DNA of 64,000 nt from Alphaproteobacteria bacterium (GTDB lineage: Bacteria > Pseudomonadota > Alphaproteobacteria > Sphingomonadales > Sphingomonadaceae). Numbering within the stretch: the first letter of the stretch is position 1; every line of letters starts with the position of its first letter. Shown here piece by piece: positions 22,732 to 23,773 of the stretch. The notes under the pieces are model-generated. The model ran no database searches and had not been told where the DNA came from. It saw only the letters and a program-made list of their open reading frames with translations. The DNA lies in NCBI GenBank assembly GCA_018970445.1, contig JAGWWF010000003.1, positions 1 to 64,000 of the forward strand. The letters run 5' to 3'. Made by a program: the position numbers and the translations under genes.

Positions 22732-22748
22732 CGCAAATATTATGCCAA
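22732..22748 (-). promoter_or_regulatory. Candidate sigma-54 promoter TTGGCATA-ATAT-TTGCG
   Basis: TGGCA/TTGC elements at -24/-12 spacing, ~42 nt before ATG. Confidence 0.55.
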
Positions 22749-22805
22749 CCAAATTTGGTTGTTTTTCTCTTACAAAAACAATAATTAATAATTTTAGTAG
22801 AAATG

Positions 22806-22827
22806 ACTGTAAGCATTGAACAACAGT
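22806..22827. promoter_or_regulatory. Candidate upstream activator site ACTGT-N12-ACAGT
   Basis: Same element at the same distance upstream of the paralog's sigma-54 promoter. Confidence 0.45.
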
Positions 22828-22983
22828 TTTGCTTCAATGCAGGCCAGAAACTGCTGCAATAATGATATATTGCAATACAACGACTTGCGGCTGACGTCGT
22901 CCACGCGGCCGACCCGCCCAAGCCACCTGCTTCCCGCAGCGGGTAAGACGGAACGACCACTGATCAGAACTCAAAAACGAAAA

Positions 22984-23010
22984 GGGGCTGCCAGACATGC
23001 TGGCAGCCCC
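22984..23010 (-). terminator. Rho-independent terminator of PEP-CTERM copy 2
   Basis: Perfect 11-bp stem GGGGCTGCCAG/CTGGCAGCCCC, 5-nt loop; followed on - strand by TTTTCGTTTTTG. Confidence 0.88.
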
Positions 23011-23047
23011 AATTCTCTCAGCCGGAAAGACCGACTGGTCAGGCCAT

Positions 23048-23719
23048 TCAGGCGGCCACGGCGCGGCGACGACGGGCGCCCAGACCAACCAGACCGAAGC
23101 CGGCGATCAGCATCGCCCAGGTCGGGGCTTCCGGCACGCCGGTGATGATGCTGAACATGTCCTTGTTGGTCGCAGTGCCGGTCAGGCTGAACTGCAGGGT
23201 CTTGTTGTCCACGAACGTGAAGGTGTCGGCAGCTTCAAGACCATTGGTAGCGGCCAGAGCATAGGCCGTGCCAGCGGCACGCAGCACCGTCGACTGGGCG
23301 CCGTCGATCACGCCAGCGGTGCGCTGCAGGCCGATGATGTTCTGGTTGAACACGATCGTGCCGGTGACAGTGCGGCTGGCGCCCGGAGCGAAGATGAAGA
23401 AGTGCGACGACACGCGCTGACCGCCGGTCACGCTGTCGGTGAGGCGCACACCCGGGGTCGGGAAGGTCGGGGCGACCAGCGCGGTCGGGCGCTGGTTGGC
23501 CCGAATGGCGCTCAGGGAAATGCTGGTGCGCTCATTGAAACCGAACACGTCGTTGTTGCCACCAACAGTGGCCACGCTGGCCGGGCTGGCGATGATCTGG
23601 CCGACGCCGCCGTTGGTGAAGGCGGTGCCACCCGACAGGGTGATGCTGACGATGACGGCGCTGGCCGGGGTGGCGGCGAGAGCCAGGGCGGCGGCGGCGG
23701 TAGCGAGTTTGAACTTCAT
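23048..23719 (-). CDS. PEPxxWA-CTERM-type sorting domain protein (copy 2, intact)
   Basis: Signal peptide; C-terminal VPEAPTWAMLIAGFGLVGLGARRRRAVAA. Confidence 0.88.
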   Translation of the reverse strand: MKFKLATAAAALALAATPASAVIVSITLSGGTAFTNGGVGQIIASPASVATVGGNNDVFGFNERTSISLSAIRANQRPTALVAPTFPTPGVRLTDSVTGGQRVSSHFFIFAPGASRTVTGTIVFNQNIIGLQRTAGVIDGAQSTVLRAAGTAYALAATNGLEAADTFTFVDNKTLQFSLTGTATNKDMFSIITGVPEAPTWAMLIAGFGLVGLGARRRRAVAA

Positions 23720-23756
23720 TGCGGTATCTCCAGTTTGGGTGTTCCGCCATCAACTA

Positions 23757-23773
23757 TGCAACAGCCGTGCCAA
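23757..23773 (-). promoter_or_regulatory. Sigma-54 promoter TTGGCACG-GCTG-TTGCA
   Basis: Full match to YTGGCACG-N4-TTGCW, ~38 nt upstream of ATG with RBS GGAGATACCGC. Confidence 0.8.

Follow-up and report, generated by a model that had tools for sequence, protein, structure and literature searches.

Predicted sigma-54 promoters with PrsR-type enhancer boxes upstream of PEPxxWA-CTERM genes in a sphingomonad genome

Two PEPxxWA-CTERM genes preceded by candidate sigma-54 promoters

The window analysed here, a stretch of 64,000 nucleotides, is the beginning of contig C32 in a genome of 3.03 Mb (99.99% complete), the host genus of which is taken to be Sandarakinorhabdus. Its minus strand carries two PEPxxWA-CTERM genes, referred to as copy 1 and copy 2, with the following features.

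23048..23719, minus strand: copy 2 gene, 223-aa PEPxxWA-CTERM protein (ORF list, profile scores)
23757..23773, minus strand: candidate sigma-54 -24/-12 element of copy 2, TTGGCACGGCTGTTGCA, 37 nt 5′ of the ATG (23719)
23832..23851, minus strand: predicted PrsR-box of copy 2, GTTGGGCTTGGTTTACAGTC, with TTACA beginning 67 nt 5′ of the -24 TGG
22026..22690, minus strand: copy 1, frameshifted PEPxxWA-CTERM gene (tblastn, alignment, NF035944)
22732..22748, minus strand: candidate sigma-54 -24/-12 element of copy 1, TTGGCATAATATTTGCG, 41 nt 5′ of the ATG (22690)
22805..22824, minus strand: degenerate PrsR-box of copy 1, GTTGTTCAATGCTTACAGTC, 65 nt before the TGG

The reading frame of copy 2 is intact and runs from an N-terminal signal peptide, MKFKLATAAAALALAATPASA, to the tail VPEAPTWAMLIAGFGLVGLGARRRRAVAA. 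Its sorting motif reads PEAPTWA, and the match to NF035944 lies close to the threshold (35.4 bits; cut-off 35), while PF07589 gave 23.5 bits. In copy 1, the N-terminal frame starts at 22690 and meets a stop at 22439, after 83 aa in the alignment, while VPEPKSWAMLLTGFGLVGFAARRRRVAVAA closes the C-terminal frame (22026-22736), which scored 48.4 bits against NF035944. The frame breaks at about 22440-22480, where the two frames required by tblastn meet. The assembled sequence of copy 1 does not allow for an intact protein, and the frameshift may reflect either a pseudogene or an assembly error.

Candidate promoters were scored with a sigma-54 weight matrix that approximates the published consensus, so that its scores are relative only. 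The copy 2 element reached 21.3, the maximum of this approximate matrix and the top sigma-54 match in the window, and a score of at least 21 occurred in none of 25 simulated windows. The copy 1 element scored 16.2, third in the window, a level that chance produced in simulated 64-kb stretches at a rate of about 0.84 each; on score alone it is therefore unexceptional, and the case for it rests on position and context. Its place before the ATG of a PEP-CTERM gene, with a box further upstream, makes it a credible promoter candidate. The decayed promoter and the frameshift make it likely that copy 1 is a duplicate on its way to loss, if the break is not an error of assembly. The two promoters of the window probably arose one from the other by duplication, so they do not count as independent evidence.

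These results agree closely with the first-pass annotation, which had placed both -24/-12 sequences exactly where we find them, about 40 nt before each ATG, and had described a full consensus match for copy 2 and intact TGGCA and TTGC at the same spacing for copy 1. All of this was recovered from the sequence, with the weaker score noted above for copy 1. Its description of two PEP-CTERM paralogs stands in so far as both C-termini are of the PEPxxWA-CTERM type; the frameshift of copy 1 has to be added to it.

A conserved box upstream of the promoters

Close relatives of copy 2 were found within the genus only, and a search of the genome's contigs returned none. The -24/-12 element is kept in the copy-2 relatives of genomes G001, G003, G018 and G019. 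Five full-length relatives, from four other genus genomes, combine a sigma-54 site (score 20.6 or 21.3) with TTACA[CG] at a fixed distance from it; a sixth relative, the second of a pair in G018, has no such site. We take copy 2 to be a working member of the proposed regulon.

The upstream strand reads GGTTTACAGTCAG in copy 2, at 67 nt 5′ of the TGG, and GCTTACAGTCAT in copy 1, at 65 nt. The motif has the genus consensus TGTCGG-N5-TTTACAC, and a weight matrix trained exclusively on other genomes (consensus TGTCGG-N5-TTTACACT) gave the copy 2 box a score of 14.5, the best of all window positions on both strands, where the 99.99th percentile was 4.2. The copy 1 box keeps the TTACAG half and has lost the TGTCGG half (score -2.2).

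Across 24 genus genomes, the pattern TTACAS-N{42,72}-TGGCAYN5TTGC matched about 80 sites against one for the reversed control pattern, and most of the genus box-promoter pairs stand before a PEP-CTERM gene. The sole genus genome without a PrsR match (G005) has zero box-promoter pairs. In G012 and G023 PrsR is present, yet the strict box-promoter pattern found no match. In the wider order, the full box pattern occurred in 64 of 401 genomes and 29 of 85 genera; the control pattern matched nowhere. The proposed link between the box and PrsR rests on co-occurrence in the literature and on the one PrsR-negative genome.

Several observations from this survey are recorded here in their own right. G005 retains PEP-CTERM-like genes despite lacking both a PrsR match and box-promoter pairs. 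Five loci of other genera (L318, L319, L321, L322 and L323) encode, behind a sigma-54 site with its box at 49 nt, a conserved protein of 75-84 aa (MFxKIxRLFxIKTxxExYLIxYALALGA...) that is not a PEP-CTERM protein. Small PEP-CTERM proteins of 61 to 153 aa follow the box at L326, L327 and L328, and two of them have Thr/Ser/Gly-rich stretches C-terminal of a KHKHYC motif.

Spacing between box and promoter

We measured spacing from the start of TTACA to the TGG of the -24 box. Within the genus, the distances fall at 55-58, 67-69 and 77-78 nt. Within the order they fall at 56-60, 66-71 and 77-79 nt and also at 49 nt, the limit of the range searched; the gaps are nearly empty. At a 10.5-nt period the Rayleigh vector length was 0.78 (n = 171), and none of 20,000 uniform draws exceeded 0.27. 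Kinship among the sites inflates this result, although the 96 sites outside the genus span many genera. The period fitting best was 10.35 nt. Genus sites at distances of 49-50 and 63 nt were set aside as probable false positives, one lying before a P-II-type gene and one being intragenic. The distances suggest that box and promoter keep a helix-locked spacing that repeats roughly every 10.4 nt. This feature looks new; in the accessible text of Haft et al. 2006, the spacing of the PEP-CTERM motifs is given as mean and spread only (PMC1569441).

Regulators, exosortase and the set of candidate targets in the genome

The first-pass annotation had associated the promoters with PrsK/PrsR and RpoN, had named the absence of rpoN or prsR as what would speak against it, and had noted no exosortase genes nearby. 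RpoN is encoded outside the window (386.9 bits; cut-off 277), with its RpoN box ARRTVAKYRE intact. On contig C13, PrsR scored 676.8 bits against the TIGR02915 cut-off of 502.6, with GAFTGA and Walker B present and GASGTGKE at the place of Walker A, and PrsK scored 548.7 bits against the TIGR02916 cut-off of 300; the two genes stand in tandem with frames overlapping by 4 nt. With RpoN and PrsR both encoded, the absence named in the first pass as a refutation does not apply. Autoregulation of prsK/prsR was considered and set aside, a sigma-54 site being absent 5′ of prsK. The box found 5′ of both copies, missed in that annotation, adds to the association it had proposed. The window indeed has no exosortase; the single one of the genome lies on contig C27 and is XrtV (362 bits; cut-off 313). 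Assignment to XrtA was rejected, since the XrtA model gave 129.5 bits, below its cut-off of 208. The XrtV locus, among exopolysaccharide genes, also encodes a V-type EpsI (256.5 bits; cut-off 228).

PEPxxWA-CTERM matches number 32 in the genome, 30 of them above the cut-off. A high-scoring sigma-54 site lies 5′ of three of these roughly 32 genes, namely copy 1, copy 2 and C13:8896-9726, the last about 11 kb from prsR; six PEP-CTERM genes, in which a signal-peptide start could not be located, were covered by the genome-wide strict pattern alone. This pattern, TGGCAYN5TTGC, gave 49 matches genome-wide against 2 for its reverse, and a comparison of all 49 with the listed PEP-CTERM genes revealed no other match near them. 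About 0.03 strict sites were expected within 100 nt 5′ of the 32 genes, compared with 3 observed. Since sites precede merely three of about 32, the remaining PEP-CTERM genes appear to be under other control. The box of C13:8896 is degenerate (score -3.1), yet correctly spaced at 68 nt, and in G001 the counterpart retains an intact TTTACAG, also at 68 nt.

The suggestion of a simple two-gene RpoN target set did not hold. The C13:8896 PEP-CTERM gene and a small-protein gene on contig C4 (described below) share the promoter type, and further near-perfect sigma-54 sites, without a PrsR-box, precede genes that look flagellar by eye (C14:93285 and C17:79527; loci L103 and L100). At these two loci a near-perfect site also stands before an FlbD/FleQ-like regulator. 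Separately, a perfect sigma-54 site, TTGGCACGGCGGTTGCA, again without a PrsR-box, lies in L104:2119-2551 (contig C20) before a 118-aa secreted protein (C20:2120).

A predicted small membrane protein gene beside alkaline phosphatase

The site on contig C4 comprises the following features.

G000:C4:28527-28621: near-consensus PrsR-box, 68-nt spacing and sigma-54 site, before a 35-aa ORF
G000:C4:28527-28770 (L102:3528-3770): region of box, promoter and 35-aa single-span ORF

The ORF, MGNWFQQAQNNRIVWVVGLVVGAATGGVAGWLIGG, is unannotated and has truA on one side and an alkaline phosphatase gene (PF00245, E 1.4e-108) on the other. No gene had been called 3′ of the site, and its dismissal as a stray match was ruled out by the conserved small ORF. 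In 12 further genus genomes, a box-promoter pair stands before a protein of 34-57 aa with one membrane span, and with the phosphatase as query, ten genus-level records had the pair and a small ORF just past the phosphatase gene. Compared with the orthologue in S. cyanobacteriorum, our sequence differs at 7, 2 and 15 sites by codon position (dN 0.14, dS 0.93); differences mainly at third codon positions support coding. The small proteins have no match above cut-off in NCBIfam or Pfam. Taken together, these sequences indicate that at least 13 of the 24 genus genomes have a predicted small membrane protein behind a PrsR-type promoter, which looks new. Our guess is that the protein partners or regulates either sorting or exopolysaccharide export.

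Interpretation and alternative explanations

The sequence elements, conserved and phased as described, stand in a genome that encodes RpoN, PrsK, PrsR, XrtV and the V-type EpsI. We consider it highly probable that both window sites belong, as sigma-54 promoters, to the PEP-CTERM/PrsK-PrsR regulon. PrsK, a sensor kinase, would phosphorylate PrsR, which would bind the box some 67 nt 5′ of the -24 element, always on one side of the helix; the AAA+ domain of PrsR would then open the RpoN polymerase complex at -24/-12 and allow transcription. The output would be a few exported proteins that carry the sorting tag for XrtV and are presumably processed by it. Because the box recurs across the genus and matches the motif of Haft et al. 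2006, the regulon itself is already known and the present case would be a new member.

The sites could also be genuine sigma-54 promoters served by another enhancer-binding protein, such as an FlbD/FleQ-like flagellar regulator, NtrC or NtrX. The genome encodes several further PrsR-like AAA+ regulators, and its RpoN serves sites before flagellar-looking genes too. The TGTCGG..TTTACA box, however, is absent from those flagellar-type sites and common to the PEP-CTERM sites and the PrsR-linked motif of Haft et al., and we regard this alternative as improbable. Chance matches to the consensus in a GC-rich genome deserve hardly any weight: degenerate -24/-12 sequences are common, GGN10GC alone occurring 1800 times in the window, but conservation across genomes at fixed spacing, the co-occurring box and the clean reversed-pattern controls all speak against them, and for copy 2 conservation in particular argues against chance.

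For copy 1 the balance is closer. Its promoter may be a relic that no longer functions, or a match arisen by chance, before a pseudogene, leaving copy 2 as the sole true target, and we put the chances of this at about even. The frameshift, the loss of half the box and a sigma-54 score that arises nearly once per window by chance favour it, but TTACAG and the -24/-12 element are both retained at 65 nt, no more than 2 nt off the phased distance, with the element 41 nt before the ATG. Such a relic is compatible with the PrsK/PrsR explanation given above.

On the PrsK/PrsR explanation, the observations could be joined further: PrsK/PrsR would have largely released the PEP-CTERM proteins and would still control, through a promoter close to consensus, the new 34-57-aa single-span family beside the phosphatase, which would regulate or partner the sorting or exopolysaccharide machinery, with PrsR active only when helix-locked. 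For this joint reading we see evenly balanced odds. If the explanation holds, the PrsK/PrsR-sigma-54 switch is now tied to exosortase V in sphingomonads, its enhancer follows a spacing rule sharp enough to test, and an overlooked small membrane protein joins the PrsK/PrsR regulon.

Comparison with known systems

XrtV, the V-type EpsI and about 32 PEPxxWA-CTERM genes place this genome beside the exosortase V/PEPxxWA-CTERM system of NCBIfam (NF035943, NF035944), where the PrsK kinase is named for XrtA systems. The literature searched contained no mention of PEPxxWA, or of XrtV in the exosortase sense, so a link of XrtV to PrsK/PrsR appears to be undescribed there.

In Aquincola tertiaricarbonis RN12, pepA is transcribed in an RpoN1-dependent manner from a mapped -24/-12 start, and the mutant was not restored by prsK or prsK-prsR (PMC9850573). 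That system shares with ours a PEP-CTERM gene, a -24/-12 promoter, an enhancer 5′ of it and prsK/prsR in the genome, and differs in belonging to another class of Proteobacteria (PMC9850573). The PepA family model NF033554 scored copy 1 at 36.5 bits and C13:8896 at 36.8 bits, below its cut-off of 80, and copy 2 was not among its listed matches.

The closest parallel is the arrangement of Haft et al. 2006, in which a 17-nt motif ending in TTTACA is followed, after about 60 nt, by a sigma-54 motif and then a PEP-CTERM gene, the motif pair being tied to PrsK, PrsR and PrsT by phylogenetic profile (PMC1569441). The order of motifs and the tandem prsK-prsR are the same as here. In contrast, 99 of 167 PEP-CTERM genes had a sigma-54 site in their system (PMC1569441), compared with 3 of about 32 in ours, and the present genome further differs in that its exosortase is XrtV and in a recurrent small-protein target outside the PEP-CTERM family.
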